A stretch of DNA of 64,000 nt, taken from Natrinema pellirubrum DSM 15624. Its GTDB lineage: Archaea > Halobacteriota > Halobacteria > Halobacteriales > Natrialbaceae. The notes under the pieces were generated by a model. That model did no database searches, had not been told where the DNA came from, and saw only the letters and a list, made by a program, of their open reading frames with translations. A program made the translations under genes and the position numbers. The stretch lies in contig NC_019962.1 in the NCBI RefSeq assembly GCF_000230735.2, positions 1,736,001 through 1,800,000 of the forward strand, in the 5' to 3' direction. Below, piece by piece: positions 22,337-43,922 of the stretch. How positions within the stretch are numbered: position 1 is the first letter of the stretch; the number at the start of each line of letters is the position of its first letter.

Positions 22337-22471
22337 ATGCGAGTTGACATCGCCATTGAACGTGGAAGCGACCTCCACGAACGAGTGAAAGAATACTCTC
22401 GTGAGAACGGCCTGCGAATGGACTTCGCATACGCCGAACTCATCGAACAAGGACTCGACGCTGAAGAATGA
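22337..22471 (+). CDS. Ribbon-helix-helix-like small protein coupled to tnpB
   Basis: 44 aa: begins MRVDIAIERGSDLHERVKEY and ends LIEQGLDAEE. The pattern of one beta strand followed by two helices is that of CopG/Arc-type DNA-binding proteins. Its stop overlaps the tnpB start as ATGA, so it is translated with TnpB. Short RHH-like frames directly before IS1341-type tnpB genes are common in haloarchaea; a role in repressing the element's promoter is plausible but unproven. Too short for routine gene calling. Confidence 0.7.
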   Translation: MRVDIAIERGSDLHERVKEYSRENGLRMDFAYAELIEQGLDAEE

Positions 22472-23787
22472 GTGAGGAGTGCAAGACGCTCGAAGCGTAT
22501 CTTGCCCCACCCACTCAGCACAAGCAGCGCAAGCTCCACGACGAACACGACCGATACGAGAAACTACTCCGTCGTAGCTTCAACAACGAGTGCGATACGA
22601 TGACCGCCGTCAACGAGGTCGTCACAGGTGAAGACCTCAACTGGCACTCGAAAAACGCTCTCAAACAATACGTGCCCAACTTGCTTGACGAGGACACGTA
22701 TGATGCGAAGCAACTCGCAGACACTCATCCAATCCGCTACGCCAACACCGCATCCGTCTTCGACCACGATGAAGACCGCCACCACGAAATTTGCTGGGAA
22801 GTCCCGCTACCCGGTCGTGGAACGAACTTCTGGATACCACTCCAGTTGAACCCAGAGCAAGAAGACTGGTGGCACTCTCTGATTAACGACGAAGACGAGA
22901 GTGTATGGGCGGGCGAACTCCGCTTACAACGCGACGGTGATAGATGGGTGTTGCACGTCACCGCGAACTACGAAGTCGAACCAGACCACTCGTATTCGTG
23001 TGAGAGCGACGATATGACACCCGTCGGGTTTGACGTGGGTGAATCCAAACTCTTGGTGGGCTGTGCCCTCCGAGACAACACACCCGTTGACCCATTATTC
23101 GTGGATGGTGGTCGCGTCCGACACCTCCGACAGAAACAATCCAGTGCCGAAGACCGCTTGAAACCCCGATACGCCTCAAAGCTCTTGGACGACCTCGTGT
23201 GGGGTCGGTGGCAAGACGCCATCGAAGACGAAATCGAGAAAGCCTCCGCACGAGCCGTCGAATACGCTGCACAGTTCGAGAACCCGGTTATCGTTTTCGA
23301 ATACCTCGACGGAATCACCGACGAGGACATTGGGAAGTACTGGAATCGACGCCTCGGCAAGTGGCTGTTCTCCCAACTACAGTCACGCATCGAGGACAAG
23401 GCAGCGGAACACGGCATTCCTGTGGAATACGTGTACCCGCATCACACGTCGAAGACGTGCCATGCGTGCCAGCATATCGGGTATCGACCGCATCAGGGCA
23501 CGTTCAAGTGTACGAACGAGGAGTGTTGGGTGTCGGAGTATCAAGCGGATTTGAACGCAGCAGCGAATATAGCCAATCGGCTAAATCCGTGGGGAGAGAG
23601 CCTACCAGTGAAATGGGTGGGCGATGACTCGCCTCGGAGCGGGGGCCAGTGGCAGGCCCACCAAGACACGTTACCGATCGAGGGACTCCCGTCCGAAAGG
23701 CGGGCTTCCGATGACAAGGTTTCGTCTAGCTCACCAACGGTGGGAGCGGGGGCGAAGCCAGAGACCGGTGATGCGAATACGTCTTGA
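22468..23787 (+). CDS. tnpB: TnpB, RNA-guided nuclease of an IS1341/IS605-type element
   Basis: 439 aa and intact. RuvC-I is in PVGFDVGESKLLVG (catalytic Asp), RuvC-II in VIVFEYLDGI (catalytic Glu), a four-Cys zinc finger spans TCHACQHIGY to CTNEECW, and RuvC-III is DLNAAANIANRLN (catalytic Asp). All active-site residues are therefore present. TnpB proteins cut DNA matched by a guide RNA made from the element's right end. There is no tnpA, so this is a TnpB-only element relying on transposase elsewhere. The C-terminal ~65 residues after RuvC-III are low-complexity and probably reflect sequence shared with the guide-RNA region. Confidence 0.95.
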   Translation: MSEECKTLEAYLAPPTQHKQRKLHDEHDRYEKLLRRSFNNECDTMTAVNEVVTGEDLNWHSKNALKQYVPNLLDEDTYDAKQLADTHPIRYANTASVFDHDEDRHHEICWEVPLPGRGTNFWIPLQLNPEQEDWWHSLINDEDESVWAGELRLQRDGDRWVLHVTANYEVEPDHSYSCESDDMTPVGFDVGESKLLVGCALRDNTPVDPLFVDGGRVRHLRQKQSSAEDRLKPRYASKLLDDLVWGRWQDAIEDEIEKASARAVEYAAQFENPVIVFEYLDGITDEDIGKYWNRRLGKWLFSQLQSRIEDKAAEHGIPVEYVYPHHTSKTCHACQHIGYRPHQGTFKCTNEECWVSEYQADLNAAANIANRLNPWGESLPVKWVGDDSPRSGGQWQAHQDTLPIEGLPSERRASDDKVSSSSPTVGAGAKPETGDANTS

Positions 23788-23887: not shown

Positions 23888-24712
23888 TCACCAGCCATTA
23901 TGAGAACGGTCAAAGTCCTCGTAGCGGGCACGAATCGTTGATTCACTCACACCAGTGAGGGCCGCGAGTTCTGATACGCTGGTCTCGGTTTGATATTCCT
24001 TCGCGGCAAACAACCATGCTCCAGCGAGAACGCCCATATGGCGTTTGCCCTGTGCCCAGTGCGCAGTCTGTGCGTGGTGCAGCAGGTCGTCAACGAGTGA
24101 GACGGCTTCGGACGGGGCTGCTGGGTATTGTAGTTTGAACAGTTGGCTTCCGATTGCGTCAAGTAGATCGTCGCGTCTGTCTCGGAGTGTGGCTGTCGAT
24201 ACATCAAATTGGTCGGCGATGTCGGCCTGAGAGAGGTCGGTGTCGGCAGCTGAGTTGGCAACGTAGAGTACAGCTGCCGCGTATGTATATGGAGAGACGC
24301 CACTGGTGACTCCGGCTTCGGCACCTAAGTCTGCAATCTGTTGTGCGTGAGCTTGGATGTCGGCAGAGAGAGCTAGATCTTTGCATGCTTCTTTGAGTAT
24401 TACTATTGGATCGTCGTTCGGTATTCCGAGTTCCAGCGCGTCCGAGATCCGTTTCTTTTCGTTAAGAATCTCTGATTCAGCAACATTTGAGGCGTCGGCT
24501 ATCTTAGTCACACGAATCGGAGTCTTTCGCAACCGGCATGCAATGAGGAAGCATGCCGCAGCAGTACGAGTGGGAACTCGGATCTGAAGTTCGCGTGCGG
24601 TGAGTTCTGAAACGAGAAGTTTACCGTACTGCTGGATGTTTTCATCCAGTTGGAGGGTCTGTTGGATCGACGTCAGGTGTCTGAGGACGGCGTCTTGAGA
24701 TTCCGTGGTCAT
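23888..24712 (-). CDS. TFB-like protein with three cyclin-type repeats and no zinc ribbon
   Basis: 274 aa. Transcription factor B normally has an N-terminal zinc ribbon and two cyclin repeats. Here no Cys cluster is present. Three segments each end in the helix-turn-helix-like close of a cyclin repeat: RVTKIADASNVAESEI near residue 80, SQADIADQFDVSTATL near 180, and SVSELAALTGVSESTI near 260. The first two fit a TFB core; the third is extra. Without the ribbon it could not recruit RNA polymerase in the usual way, so it may be an alternative or inhibitory factor. It overlaps the upstream gene by 4 bases (ATGA) and is the last gene of a three-gene operon. Repeat assignment is by eye. Confidence 0.75.
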   Translation of the reverse strand: MTTESQDAVLRHLTSIQQTLQLDENIQQYGKLLVSELTARELQIRVPTRTAAACFLIACRLRKTPIRVTKIADASNVAESEILNEKKRISDALELGIPNDDPIVILKEACKDLALSADIQAHAQQIADLGAEAGVTSGVSPYTYAAAVLYVANSAADTDLSQADIADQFDVSTATLRDRRDDLLDAIGSQLFKLQYPAAPSEAVSLVDDLLHHAQTAHWAQGKRHMGVLAGAWLFAAKEYQTETSVSELAALTGVSESTIRARYEDFDRSHNGW

Positions 24713-25140
24713 ATGCTGAACCCAATCAATTTTCTATGAGTGCTGAAACGTATCGAGGAGCGTTCGAAGTCGATACTAAGTGAACCGTATCGGTAGCGAC
24801 CGACGATTGCTTCTAGTGCTTCGATGTCAAGTTCATCGAGTGCGTGATCATCTGTGCGGATTGATTGCTGGTGAACGTGTAGTACTTCCTCAGTTGTCTT
24901 CATCACCTCCGCTTCTGAGGTACACTCGCCAACAGTTACTGGTTGTTCTTCACCAACATTCGTGATGGCTGGAATAATATAGATAACATTATACTCAACG
25001 CTTCTCTGTCCTACGAGTCGTACATACAGATCGGTAGTCCCAGGGCTCTCAAACTGAAAATCGAACATCGTCTCCTCGCATTGTCCAGTCGCCGCCTGAG
25101 TATGACAGTACCCTGGAAAGTTAATTGAGTGTGTTATCAT
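24709..25140 (-). CDS. Unknown protein between isoprenoid-synthase-like and TFB-like genes
   Basis: 143 aa from the ATG at 25138-25140, or about 119 aa from a later ATG (MFDFQFESPGTTD). I do not recognise a family. A beta-rich middle (LYVRLVGQRSVEYNVIYIIP) is followed by an acidic helical part (LDELDIEALEAIVGRYRYG). If the first start is used the N-terminus carries two Cys residues 11 apart. It overlaps the upstream gene by 20 bases and the TFB-like gene by 4, so all three are made together. Confidence 0.7.
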   Translation of the reverse strand: MITHSINFPGYCHTQAATGQCEETMFDFQFESPGTTDLYVRLVGQRSVEYNVIYIIPAITNVGEEQPVTVGECTSEAEVMKTTEEVLHVHQQSIRTDDHALDELDIEALEAIVGRYRYGSLSIDFERSSIRFSTHRKLIGFSI

Positions 25141-25807
25141 TAGTGTCTGAAGTCTGCTGCTCCAGTCTTAGTGTCGTAGCTTCGGCGAACGCTCGAAGGT
25201 TCGTTACGTCTACAGTTTTTGACAGGGTATCGAGAGCCTTGTCAACGTCATCTCGCCTCCGTTCTGCATGTAGACGGAATTGTGACTCGTCGAACGTGGG
25301 CGAGGCAACCATCGCTTTGTTTGAATCTCTTTCGATGATAGCGCGGAACTGGCGGGCTGTACCGAGGTTCCGTCCGAGTCGCTCACAGTGGGGACGAACT
25401 GCGTCGTCGAAATCAGCCAGCGTCGCTCCAAGGGCAGCAGCACCTGCACCGAGACTTCCCGCTGTTTCATCGAGAAACACCGCTTCCTCACAATCTGTTG
25501 ATCCGGCCGACGTGTAGGTGCGCGCAAACGCTTCCGTGATCGTTTCAATCACCGTTGTCAGTACCCCAAAACAGCCATCCGACTGGGGACCAGATATTGA
25601 TCCGAGTGACGAGAACGAGGCCGTATACAGATAATATCCTGTCAATAGCGCTGCTGTCGGATCCAACGTGAGCGAGTGCGTATCTTTGTCGGTAAGTGTG
25701 GTAAACAACCGGCTTCGAAGACGAACGTACTCTCGGAGTAATTCGATTGATACGGCGGCAGGAAGGACCTCCTCGTGATTCTGGTGATCAGACAGTGAAT
25801 TGTACAT
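25121..25807 (-). CDS. Isoprenoid-synthase-fold protein (polyprenyl-synthetase-like, divergent)
   Basis: 228 aa from the ATG at 25805-25807 (MYNSLSDHQNHEE); a TTG seven codons earlier is possible. All-helical. The segments DPTAALLTGYYLYTASFSSLG and DETAGSLGAGAAALGATLADF, followed by ERLGRNLGTARQF, follow the pattern of trans-prenyl synthases, but neither Asp-rich motif (DDxxD) is present where expected. It therefore resembles divergent relatives such as ComQ-type prenyltransferases more than a housekeeping enzyme, and may be catalytically changed or inactive. An AT-rich box (AATATCAAAATT) about 45 bases upstream is the likely promoter. Fold assignment is from pattern only. Confidence 0.6.
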   Translation of the reverse strand: MYNSLSDHQNHEEVLPAAVSIELLREYVRLRSRLFTTLTDKDTHSLTLDPTAALLTGYYLYTASFSSLGSISGPQSDGCFGVLTTVIETITEAFARTYTSAGSTDCEEAVFLDETAGSLGAGAAALGATLADFDDAVRPHCERLGRNLGTARQFRAIIERDSNKAMVASPTFDESQFRLHAERRRDDVDKALDTLSKTVDVTNLRAFAEATTLRLEQQTSDTNDNTLN

Positions 25808-26034
25808 GACCTGCTCTGTTGAACGCAAGACGGCGGCAGTATTGAAATTTTGATATTCAGGTAGATGGCGTTAGAACTCCTGTACTGATGGTTTTGAGAT
25901 CTGGATGATGTGGGAGGAGTCCAGTTCGTTGATTCTGCAACCATCAGAATTAGGTCACTTTGTGAGAACCCGTACGTGGATGACGGCGATGTCTCTGGCG
26001 GATACGTCCAGAGAAAGAGAGCAGGCGGCGAGCC

Positions 26035-26850
26035 CTAACTCGCCGCCTGCGATAGGTTATGCACGATACACTTGCGCGTGAGCTCTCGGAACTGGCCGTG
26101 CCAGCTCCGAGAGCGTAACTTCTCACCGTCATCCTTCAGTAGTGAGAACGCAGTCTCACTCAGTGTCCGCTGATGGTACAGATCTTCGTCCATCCGAGCG
26201 TTATGCGCTTTCTTCAGCGCATTGTGCTCCTTGTGCTTGATTAGCGGTCGTGTCGCGCCAGCGCGACACTCCTCTCTGAGATCTGACCACGAATAGTTCG
26301 CATCTGCAAGGAACTCTTGCAGGTCTTCGGCGTTGCGCCGATAGACCTGCAAGCCGATGTGTCCGTCCCACTTGCGCTTCGTCGTGAAATGAACGTCTTT
26401 GATCGCCAGTGACTCTGTATCGACCAAAACCGTCGTCTTCAGCTTATGAAACGAGAAGCCAGCACGATTCCGGTAATGATAGCTGGTCTGATCTCGCTGG
26501 AAGCCACTGGCGTCGATTGCTGCTGTTCCCGACCAGCCAGCCTGCTCCGCACTGCGGCGGAGCAGGCTGCGGAGCTCACGCATGTCGACCTGTTGCTCCC
26601 ATCGACAGAGCGTGGTGTGATCCGGCGATTTGTCGATGTTGAGCTCTTCACGGATGGCTCTGGAGTCATTGAACCATGCTTCAGTCTCTCGGAAATCTTT
26701 GTCGAGTTCCGCATGCAAGAGGATAAACGCGATCTGAGCCCACTCGGCGAACCCGCTGGCGCCGTCCGGCGCAGCGGGTTCGTCAGGGTTATCCACGTGC
26801 TGTTTGGCAAGATTCTTACACTGCCGTATGATCGGTCGTTTCGACCTCAT
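26035..26850 (-). CDS. IS5-family transposase
   Basis: 271 aa from the ATG at 26848-26850 (MRSKRPIIRQCKNLAKQ). It looks complete. Catalytic acids of the DDE domain are in TAAIDASGFQRD, LADANYSWSDL and LSETAFSLLKDD; the Arg-rich segment KLRSRSWHGQFRELTRK near the C-terminus is typical. No stop or frameshift is visible, making it one of the few whole transposases in the window. I could not delimit the terminal inverted repeats with confidence. The right end lies beside a 57-codon frame that may have been cut by the insertion. Confidence 0.85.
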   Translation of the reverse strand: MRSKRPIIRQCKNLAKQHVDNPDEPAAPDGASGFAEWAQIAFILLHAELDKDFRETEAWFNDSRAIREELNIDKSPDHTTLCRWEQQVDMRELRSLLRRSAEQAGWSGTAAIDASGFQRDQTSYHYRNRAGFSFHKLKTTVLVDTESLAIKDVHFTTKRKWDGHIGLQVYRRNAEDLQEFLADANYSWSDLREECRAGATRPLIKHKEHNALKKAHNARMDEDLYHQRTLSETAFSLLKDDGEKLRSRSWHGQFRELTRKCIVHNLSQAAS

Positions 26851-26919
26851 ATCGCCAGACGGCGTCCAATTCCCCACAAGTCTCACGGAATTCAGCCGAG
26901 AACAAGGCTGAAACTGGTG

Positions 26920-27093
26920 CTATTCGACGCTGCAACAGAGCAACATGACCACTACCAGCTGTCCGTACCATCTGTCGGGAGATTCGTGCAGTATATCGCG
27001 GACGAGCGGTAGACTGTTCTCGTCCGCGTTACTGAGCGCCTGTCTCAGATGACGCTCGATCTGTGAGGGGTGGACAGGGGTCGAGTCAGCCAT
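26920..27093 (-). CDS. Small protein, possibly 3'-truncated by the IS5 element
   Basis: 57 codons, starting MADSTPVHPSQIERHLRQAL and continuing SNADENSLPLVRDILHESPD. The start lies 6 bases after the MATE transporter stop on the same strand, so it is probably the last gene of that operon. The first 40 residues look like a real acidic helical haloarchaeal protein; the end (LVVVMLLCCSVE) does not, and reads into the IS5 flank. I take it as a gene whose natural C-terminus was replaced by the insertion. Confidence 0.55.
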   Translation of the reverse strand: MADSTPVHPSQIERHLRQALSNADENSLPLVRDILHESPDRWYGQLVVVMLLCCSVE

Positions 27094-27098
27094 TGGTA

Positions 27099-28583
27099 TC
27101 AGTCATCACCTGCTACTGTCTCAACACTCGTTTCGTCGAGATCAACGTTGGGTTCGGTCAGGTCGCTCCCGCGCCACGTACCACCTTGATACCACACGTA
27201 TGCAATGATCGCTCCGGCGACGTTCGAAACCGCAAACGATAGCCAGACACCCGTTTCTCCGAGCGGACCTGCGGTGATCCACGCGACAGGGAAGCGAATA
27301 ACACCAAGCGTCAATACGGAGATTGCCGCCGCAGTGAGCGTTTTCCCAGCACCGCGGAAACTACCTGTATACGCCCGCATAATACCCATAAACCCGAACG
27401 TCAGCGCGACGTACCGAATGAATTCCGCACCGATATCAACAACTTGGGCGGCGTTCGCCTGATTCGCACCGACGAATATCGAGACGATGGGTTCAGGGAA
27501 CAGGAAGGCGGCGATCCCTGTGACCGTGAGAAGCCCGAAGAGAACCTTTGCCGCCAGCCCCGCCGCCTGTGCGGCTCGGTCCGGTTTGTCGGCTCCGATG
27601 TTCTGGCCAGTCATCGTTTCGACACCACGGGCGACGGCAAGGGCGGGGAGGAAGGCAACCGAGAAGACACGCGTGCCGATACCGTACGCGGCAACAACTG
27701 TATCCGGGAATATCGCAACGATAACCAACAGCAGGTTCATCGAGAGCGCCCGGCCAGTGCCCTCAATCGATGCCGGCAGACCGATACGAACGAGGCGGCG
27801 GAGATACGAGAGGTCCGGGACCATATCGCGGAGGTGGATCTGAACGCCACGTTCGCCACGGAACATGATCAATAGGCCGACAACCAGTGCGAGCGCACGC
27901 GAGAACACGGTAGCGATGGCTGCGCCTTGAATTCCGAGTTCGGGGAATGCCACCGTACCAATGAGCGGCTCGTTCTCGACGACAGTCCAGCCGAAGATGA
28001 GGAACGGATCGAGAATGATGTTGAGTACGACCGACCCAAACATGACGAGCATTGGGGTGATTGTATCCCCGTATCCGCGCATGAGCGAGACGAAGACGGC
28101 GAACCCGAACATGAACACGAGACCGAGTGAGATGACCTCCATATAACTCGTCGCCAGTGGTAACACGTCCTGCGACGCGCCCATCAGACCAAGAAAATTG
28201 TCGACACCGACGTAGCCGATGCTGCCGAGGATGATTGAGGCAATAACGGCGAACGTTACTGTCTGCGAGGCAGCGTATTCGGCCTTGCGCTCTTCGCCAG
28301 CACCGGTGAATTGTGCGACAAGGACGCTGCCGGCGACGGAAATCCCCATCCCAAGTGAGATGAGCAGAAACACCATCGGAAAGGCAAAGCTAATTGCGGC
28401 GAGTGCGTCAGTGTTGTACTGACCCAGCCAGAACGTGTCCGCGAGATTGTACGCGGTCTGGAAGAGGTTTGTGACGACGATTGGCATCGAGAGGAAGAAC
28501 AGTGGTTTCCCGATGCTGCCTGATGTCAGGTCGAACTCTTCGGGTCCCTTAAAGAGGGATTGGATGCGGCTGCAAACGCTCAT
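27099..28583 (-). CDS. MATE-family efflux transporter
   Basis: 494 aa with 12 membrane helices arranged in two six-helix halves, as in MATE/NorM exporters. Recognisable segments: PIVVTNLFQTAYNLADTFWLG in the first helix region and VAQFTGAGEERKAE, then GLPASIEGTGRALSM opening the second half. It should expel cationic drugs or toxic compounds in exchange for Na+ or H+. Its start overlaps the TetR-family gene stop by one base, so the pump is co-expressed with its presumed repressor. Confidence 0.94.
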   Translation of the reverse strand: MSVCSRIQSLFKGPEEFDLTSGSIGKPLFFLSMPIVVTNLFQTAYNLADTFWLGQYNTDALAAISFAFPMVFLLISLGMGISVAGSVLVAQFTGAGEERKAEYAASQTVTFAVIASIILGSIGYVGVDNFLGLMGASQDVLPLATSYMEVISLGLVFMFGFAVFVSLMRGYGDTITPMLVMFGSVVLNIILDPFLIFGWTVVENEPLIGTVAFPELGIQGAAIATVFSRALALVVGLLIMFRGERGVQIHLRDMVPDLSYLRRLVRIGLPASIEGTGRALSMNLLLVIVAIFPDTVVAAYGIGTRVFSVAFLPALAVARGVETMTGQNIGADKPDRAAQAAGLAAKVLFGLLTVTGIAAFLFPEPIVSIFVGANQANAAQVVDIGAEFIRYVALTFGFMGIMRAYTGSFRGAGKTLTAAAISVLTLGVIRFPVAWITAGPLGETGVWLSFAVSNVAGAIIAYVWYQGGTWRGSDLTEPNVDLDETSVETVAGDD

Positions 28584-29182
28584 TACTGTGCGACCTCCGG
28601 TTGTTTGTCGGCGAGCAGTTGTTGCTCGATGTATATCGTCATCATATTGTAGAGTTGATCAGAGGAGTGGTCGATAGCGACGTGGCGAGTGTGCGCACCA
28701 ATAATGGTCGTTGCGAGGTATTCCGCATCGTCGGCTGGCGTGATGGAGTCGTCGAACTCGCCGGTGTCTACGCCGGCTGCGAGTATCGCTCGCAGTTGTT
28801 CGAATAGAAACTCATCGAAGTCGGTGATGCGCTTCTGTAAAGTCGAATTGTATGGGGCCTGTGCTGTTAGTTCGAGCATCGCGGTTCTGAACGGCCTCAG
28901 CGACGAGTCAGCGTCGCTAGTGAGTAATTCTTGGAGGAGACCCTCAAGTTGTTCATACGGTGTGTCACCGTTGTGAGTGCCCACGCGGTCGGTGAACCGT
29001 TCGTACAGTTCATCGAGGAAAGAGATGAATAATTCGTCTTTGGAGCCGTAGTAGTAGTGGATTGATCCCTTGCTCTTGTCTGTTTCAGCAGCTATATCCT
29101 GGAGTGTGAGATTCGCATAGCCATACTCACAGAGGGCATGATACGTCGCATCCAAGATCTCGGTGGCTGGATCGTCCGCCAT
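28583..29182 (-). CDS. TetR-family regulator of the MATE operon
   Basis: 199 aa. Residues about 5-55 are the TetR helix-turn-helix (TEILDATYHALCEYGYANLTLQDIA, then TDKSKGSIHYYYGSKDELF); the rest is the helical ligand-binding domain. TetR proteins usually repress a neighbouring efflux gene until a drug binds. A palindrome ACTAAC-CA-GTTAGT starts 19 bases before the ATG, positioned to give autorepression of the whole TetR-MATE operon. Confidence 0.92.
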   Translation of the reverse strand: MADDPATEILDATYHALCEYGYANLTLQDIAAETDKSKGSIHYYYGSKDELFISFLDELYERFTDRVGTHNGDTPYEQLEGLLQELLTSDADSSLRPFRTAMLELTAQAPYNSTLQKRITDFDEFLFEQLRAILAAGVDTGEFDDSITPADDAEYLATTIIGAHTRHVAIDHSSDQLYNMMTIYIEQQLLADKQPEVAQ

Positions 29183-29200
29183 TTGCTTGATATTCTATTT

Positions 29201-29214
29201 ACTAACCAGTTAGT
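29201..29214 (-). promoter_or_regulatory. Likely TetR operator
   Basis: ACTAAC and GTTAGT are exact reverse complements separated by CA, and the flanks TTT/AAA extend the symmetry imperfectly. It lies 19-32 bases upstream of the TetR start, inside the region where the promoter must be. Similar CTAAC/GTTAG inverted repeats occur near 34014-34025 and 43745. Confidence 0.6.
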
Positions 29215-29357
29215 CAAAAGGGTTTGGATGTGTTGGTGAAACGAGGGTAACCGCTATTTCGACCTGTATACGCCGATACAAACGGAATTATGAATTGATG
29301 ATCTAGTGGTTTACTCAAAATAGTTATCCTCCTCTGGACTAATATTGGATCAATGGA

Positions 29358-43725: not shown

Positions 43726-43922
43726 AACTTATTTCAAAATACTAACTAATTAGTAATAAGTGCTTTTCATATAAGACTATATAACTTTAAAATAATCTCC
43801 GGAGTCTCACAAATCAGTCATTATCGTCTGAAATAGGCACTTTAACTAGACAAAGGAGTCCAAGAGATATCACTACGAGCTAGAATAGTCTCTTTAACTA
43901 GATTAGGAGCCGGATCGATGGT

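Follow-up and report, generated by a model that had tools for sequence, protein, structure and literature searches.

The window analysed here, 64,000 nt of Natrinema pellirubrum DSM 15624 (NC_019962.1), carries a minus-strand unit of five genes in the order TetR-MATE-ISO-ORF143-TFB-like. A TetR-family repressor (199 aa, 28583..29182; Pfam TetR_N, 7.5e-12) is followed by a MATE-family efflux transporter (494 aa, 27099..28583; Pfam MatE, 2e-60, two stretches), a prenyl-synthase relative termed ISO that is split by an insertion, an unknown protein termed ORF143 (24709..25140; over 121 aa, 52–60% identical to its counterparts in three relatives), and a protein resembling the archaeal transcription factor TFB (274 aa, 23888..24712; Pfam TFIIB, 5e-31, three stretches). 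A putative palindromic operator, TTGACTAACTGGTTAGTAA (29199..29217, minus strand), starts 35 nt upstream of the TetR start and overlaps the presumed operon promoter. An earlier sequence-only reading had described the 3′ part of this arrangement, three minus-strand ORFs with overlaps of 20 and 4 bases, as one functional unit; ORFs and overlaps are present as it described them, and a neighbourhood search found the trio adjacent in other genomes from more than one family, but the unit is longer and includes TetR and MATE. All five genes occur in the same order and direction in Halopenitus malekzadehii (L086, L103) and in genomes G158 (L101) and G224 (L102), and dN/dS values indicate purifying selection on each of them. 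G224 has two ISO copies, one on C133 (L102) within the full operon and the other on C190. Public records carry the annotations ‘transcription initiation factor IIB family protein’ and ‘polyprenyl synthetase’, and our literature searches found no published description of the TetR-MATE-ISO-ORF143-TFB-like operon. Downstream of the TFB-like gene, a 439-aa plus-strand ORF (22468-23787) has, by eye only, the look of an IS200/IS605-type TnpB.

In the window, ISO is broken; TetR and MATE are still whole. An IS5-family insertion sequence of 1131 bp (25812..26942; transposase at 26035-26886, minus strand) separates a 5′ fragment of ~50 codons (26943..27093, minus strand; tblastn, 72% over residues 1–50 of the Halopenitus ISO), whose codons 1–50 adjoin MATE at 27093-26943, from a 3′ fragment (25121..25811, minus strand). 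An 8-bp target-site duplication, ACATGACC, could be read from the flanks (left copy 25804..25811, right copy 26943..26950). The trio’s first gene, previously taken to be whole, is this 3′ fragment: the ATG at 25807 that had served as its start falls inside the duplication, and full-length relatives have ~50 more N-terminal residues. As the element has a 100% identical counterpart elsewhere in the genome, where 11 near-identical copies are found, the clean insertion is probably recent; the operons of Halopenitus and of two further genera of another family are free of it.

The window copy of the operon may be decaying, given the broken ISO and a 1-base deletion near codon 122 of ORF143 that shifts the frame and alters the C-terminus. 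Window-specific codon changes, though small in number, hint at relaxed selection in this lineage, with a non-synonymous to synonymous ratio of 18:14 in ORF143 (0:6 on the Halopenitus side) and of 23:10 in the 3′ part of ISO (15:13 on the Halopenitus side). In the relatives, ORF143 is under purifying selection, with dN/dS (NG86) at 0.16–0.22 among distinct relatives and 0.22–0.31 against the window copy. The protein measures 133–143 aa, and an early Trp of the relatives is absent from the window copy. Searches of Pfam and NCBIfam returned no family at significance for it, and the profile scans gave no support to a likeness to HalOD1 that had been considered by eye for its C-terminus. Halopenitus and G224 have exactly the 20-base ISO/ORF143 overlap, which has been lost in G158, where ISO (L101:8697-9530) meets an in-frame stop ~12 codons before its expected end. 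The 4-base ORF143/TFB-like overlap is peculiar to the window genome with its deletion-altered ORF143 end, the three relatives having gaps of ~8–21 bases.

At the 5′ end of the operon, TetR is 82% identical to its Halopenitus homologue in the same operon (dN/dS 0.14) and MATE 92% identical (dN/dS 0.07). MATE scores above the cut-off of TIGR00797; its nearest NCBIfam model, MATE_SolL, gives 312 bits, under that model’s 780-bit cut-off. The palindrome TTGACTAACYRGTTAGTAA was found 35–40 nt upstream of TetR in 14 of the 16 TetR genes compared, matching at 14–19 of 19 bases, and scored at least 17 in 12 of these 14, the weakest match belonging to a TetR at 41% identity. In the two comparisons without the palindrome a different TetR was probably matched. 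Shuffled upstream regions reached a score of 14 in only 2 of 3,200 trials, and the operator is conserved with or without a TFB-like gene in the operon. The usual reading of such a site would be autoregulation of TetR through the palindrome. Exact operator matches in the genome are the window copy and one at C1:1698392. The latter belongs to a second TetR-MATE pair (C1:1698392-1700507, L183; 73% and 89% identical to the window pair) downstream of which no ISO was found. An operator-like match at window position 43739 (3 mismatches) was set aside as chance, with no TetR, MATE or ISO beside it.

For ISO, a polyprenyl-synthetase pattern without either DDxxD motif had been noted in what is now seen to be a fragment, together with a supposed isoprenoid-synthase fold; pattern, missing motifs and fold all stand. 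Pfam PF00348 (polyprenyl synthase) matches the window fragment weakly (E 0.0096), and the ISO family profile finds the archaeal GGPP synthase 1wy0 in the PDB (E 2.6e-9). We modelled ISO from N. hispanicum, where the gene is intact (mean pLDDT 63, pTM 0.66). Foldseek aligned this model with prenyl synthases at probability 1.00 and TM 0.5–0.6, its matches including non-catalytic small subunits, plant ones among them, and VIA-align gave this modest model Z scores of ~18–20 (rmsd 3.3–5.2 over 191–235 residues) against prenyl synthases. The predicted isoprenoid-synthase helical fold holds, with the model confident only to ~residue 198 and pLDDT under 50 past that point. DDxxD was absent from the FARM and SARM positions in 34 of 34 ISO sequences examined (seven of the proteins have DDxxD strings elsewhere, at residues 20–35 or near the C-terminus), and judging from these missing motifs catalysis has probably been lost. 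Open frames of 776–797 aa around some ISO genes were considered as MATE-ISO fusions and rejected, as different frames or an intervening stop separate the two genes at all 23 loci with MATE upstream. The genome’s second ISO (C1:2867220-2868023, L081) is 37–38% identical; no match to this MATE lies within the 20 kb around it, and operator-like palindromes with 2–3 mismatches occur ~160 nt and 1.4–5 kb away.

The TFB-like protein lacks a zinc ribbon; its two complete cyclin repeats are followed by a third of four helices. This bears out what had been read from the sequence, both in the three TFIIB-repeat stretches reported by Pfam and in the AlphaFold2 model (mean pLDDT 88), whose helices are grouped five, five and four and which contains more than two cyclin units, two of them complete. 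Taken alone, the third unit matches Pfam TFIIB at E 1.1e-8 from profile position 32 on, the first part of the repeat being missing. In hhalign comparisons it aligned weakly with repeat 1, and with repeat 2 at probability 90 over the helix-turn-helix (HTH) only, so the claim of a third repeat rests on the Pfam match and the model. We compared 31 TFB-type loci, 29 outside the TFB-like family and two members of it: in all 29 other haloarchaeal TFBs the zinc-ribbon pattern is present and repeat 2 is followed by no more than 14 residues; the two members have no ribbon and continue for ~97 residues past repeat 2. The zinc ribbon is the part of TFB that docks and recruits RNA polymerase. Identity to the genome’s other TFBs is ~30%, and dN/dS is ~0.2. 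Within the family alignment, Arg177 (repeat 2) is invariant and Arg261 (repeat 3) nearly so; in our alignment both fall at the position of human TFIIB Arg286, a residue with a role at the BRE. A PADLOC match to mad1 was dismissed, as it spans only 21 residues of the HTH.

The TetR-MATE-ISO module is spread across the haloarchaeal class: ISO was present in 47 of 381 sampled genomes and 23 of 85 genera, and MATE (62–92% identical) lies directly upstream of ISO at 23 of 30 ISO loci. The TFB-like family is smaller, with 15 loci in 13 genomes. An alignment-based search of genome contigs recovered seven TFB-like loci, a single-protein search of genome contigs no relative, and among the viral contigs and phages searched none was found. 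Eight of the 15 loci lie within ~2.5 kb of an ISO gene and the remaining seven are not beside one; against the occurrence of ISO in 47 of 381 genomes, this association is not due to chance. The arrangement varies between genomes. Natrinema hispanicum has TetR-MATE-ISO-TFB with a trace of ORF143, ISO and TFB being on the same strand; in N. zhouii and Natrinema sp. SYSU A 869 the TFB-like gene is near ISO in opposite orientation; and in Natrinema versiforme and Natrialba, where no ISO accompanies it, it follows a remnant of ORF143 with a broken frame. With a cut-off of 1e-40, no TFB-like gene was seen in most of the 47 genomes that carry ISO, and on the ISO tree the link must have been gained or lost at least four times, so the TFB link is dispensable. 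On the same tree, two clades of ISO that are distant from each other have TFB next to ISO.

Our preferred reading, to which we give a probability of roughly 45%, is that of a TetR-autoregulated export operon that includes an accessory protein of prenyl-synthase fold without catalytic activity and, in a minority of genomes, a ribbon-less regulator derived from TFB. An inducing compound would release TetR from its operator, and MATE would export that compound. ISO retains the hydrophobic bundle of helices typical of trans-prenyl synthases without their metal and diphosphate sites, and for want of these sites it probably makes no prenyl chains; it might instead bind a lipophilic or isoprenoid ligand, or form a pair with a catalytic synthase in the manner of small subunits. 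The TFB-like protein has kept the HTHs for DNA reading in repeats 2 and 3 and lacks the ribbon. With the HTHs kept and the RNA-polymerase-docking part missing, it is most likely a regulator and not a basal initiation factor, and would sit on a DNA site or on complexes of TBP with a promoter, as a competitor or local repressor. In the window itself, transcription of ORF143 and the TFB-like gene would need a new promoter or read-through of the insertion. We consider it unlikely, though worth stating, that the family forms a class of TFB-derived regulators (ribbon lost, third cyclin repeat gained) that control the export operon at whose end they are encoded, while the dead prenyl-synthase fold serves the MATE pump as a carrier or as a sensor of lipid ligands.

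The strongest rival, doubtful in our view but to be taken seriously, holds that ORF143 and the TFB-like gene are a passenger cassette that landed behind TetR-MATE-ISO and is functionally unconnected with it. Much of the distribution speaks for this: most ISO operons are without the pair, seven TFB-like loci lie elsewhere, ORF143 remnants persist in N. versiforme, Natrialba and N. hispanicum, the link changes at least four times on the ISO tree, and insertion sequences surround the window copy. A mere passenger would, however, sit poorly with the exactness of the 20-nt ISO/ORF143 overlap in Halopenitus and G224, with dN/dS values of ~0.2 for both genes, with the two distant ISO clades in which TFB lies beside ISO, and with the shared strand of ISO and TFB in N. 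hispanicum.

Improbable, yet still ahead of any signalling role, is the view that the TFB-like protein serves as an initiation factor, alternative or trans-acting, and would aid RNA polymerase at special promoters, as Sulfolobus TFB3 does with TFB1. The use of TFB paralogues for differential regulation in haloarchaea (PMC4230888) and the joint activation by TFB3 with the TFB1-TBP-DNA complex (PMC5817253) provide precedents, but domain loss has run in opposite directions, TFB3 being without the DNA-binding part and the TFB-like protein without the polymerase-recruiting ribbon. The missing ribbon also weakens the alternative-basal-factor idea raised by the sequence-only reading. Its other suggestion was a ComQ-type signalling role. 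Spelled out for the whole operon, this would be quorum sensing through a peptide that is prenylated by ISO, leaves the cell through MATE and elicits a response from the TFB-like protein, which we regard as very improbable: a prenyl-synthase fold, an overlapping small downstream gene and an exporter do share one operon, but the first Asp-rich motif on which ComQ activity depends (PMC5331326) is missing from the 34 ISO sequences, ORF143 with its 133–143 aa and, in the window copy, no early Trp is no short pheromone precursor (ComX has 53–58 aa; PMC5331326), the neighbours of ISO are TetR and a MATE exporter with no kinase/regulator pair, and a census of ComQXPA systems found none outside Firmicutes (PMC4008528).

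The TetR-MATE-ISO module offers a defined genetic setting, beside an exporter, for a prenyl-synthase fold that is probably dead in catalysis. Should the TFB-like protein turn out to bind complexes of TBP and promoter but not to recruit RNA polymerase, it would represent a basal factor turned into a dedicated local regulator in archaea.

Several known systems share parts of this arrangement. HexA of Micrococcus is reportedly the non-catalytic small subunit of a heteromeric prenyl synthase. ISO resembles such subunits, among them also mint GPPS-SSU, which has a prenyl-synthase fold at low identity and no DDxxD (PMC7839719), in precisely these three respects; unlike them, it has no adjoining catalytic partner gene, its neighbours being the MATE exporter and TetR. 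Bacillus ComQ, too, is related to prenyl synthases and has a small overlapping gene behind it, but keeps the first Asp-rich motif that ISO lacks, and no ComX, ComP or ComA is found at the window locus.

With the TFB core of P. woesei (1d3u/1ais), the TFB-like protein has in common two cyclin repeats with HTHs (Foldseek E 1e-7; profile E 6e-21; VIA-align Z 16–17, rmsd ~11.5–11.8 over 190–194 residues), whereas it is without the zinc ribbon of P. woesei TFB and has ~75 extra residues that form the third, four-helix repeat. Sulfolobus TFB3 is, in the same way, a shortened TFB paralogue beside a full TFB (PMC5817253), yet it retains the contact to RNA polymerase and has given up the DNA-binding part, the reverse of what is seen here. 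As a whole, the window operon resembles in layout TetR-MATE multidrug efflux operons, in which an autoregulated repressor gene stands beside that of a MATE pump, autoregulation being predicted here from the operator sequence; it differs from them in having ISO as a third gene, to which some genomes add ORF143 and the TFB-like gene.
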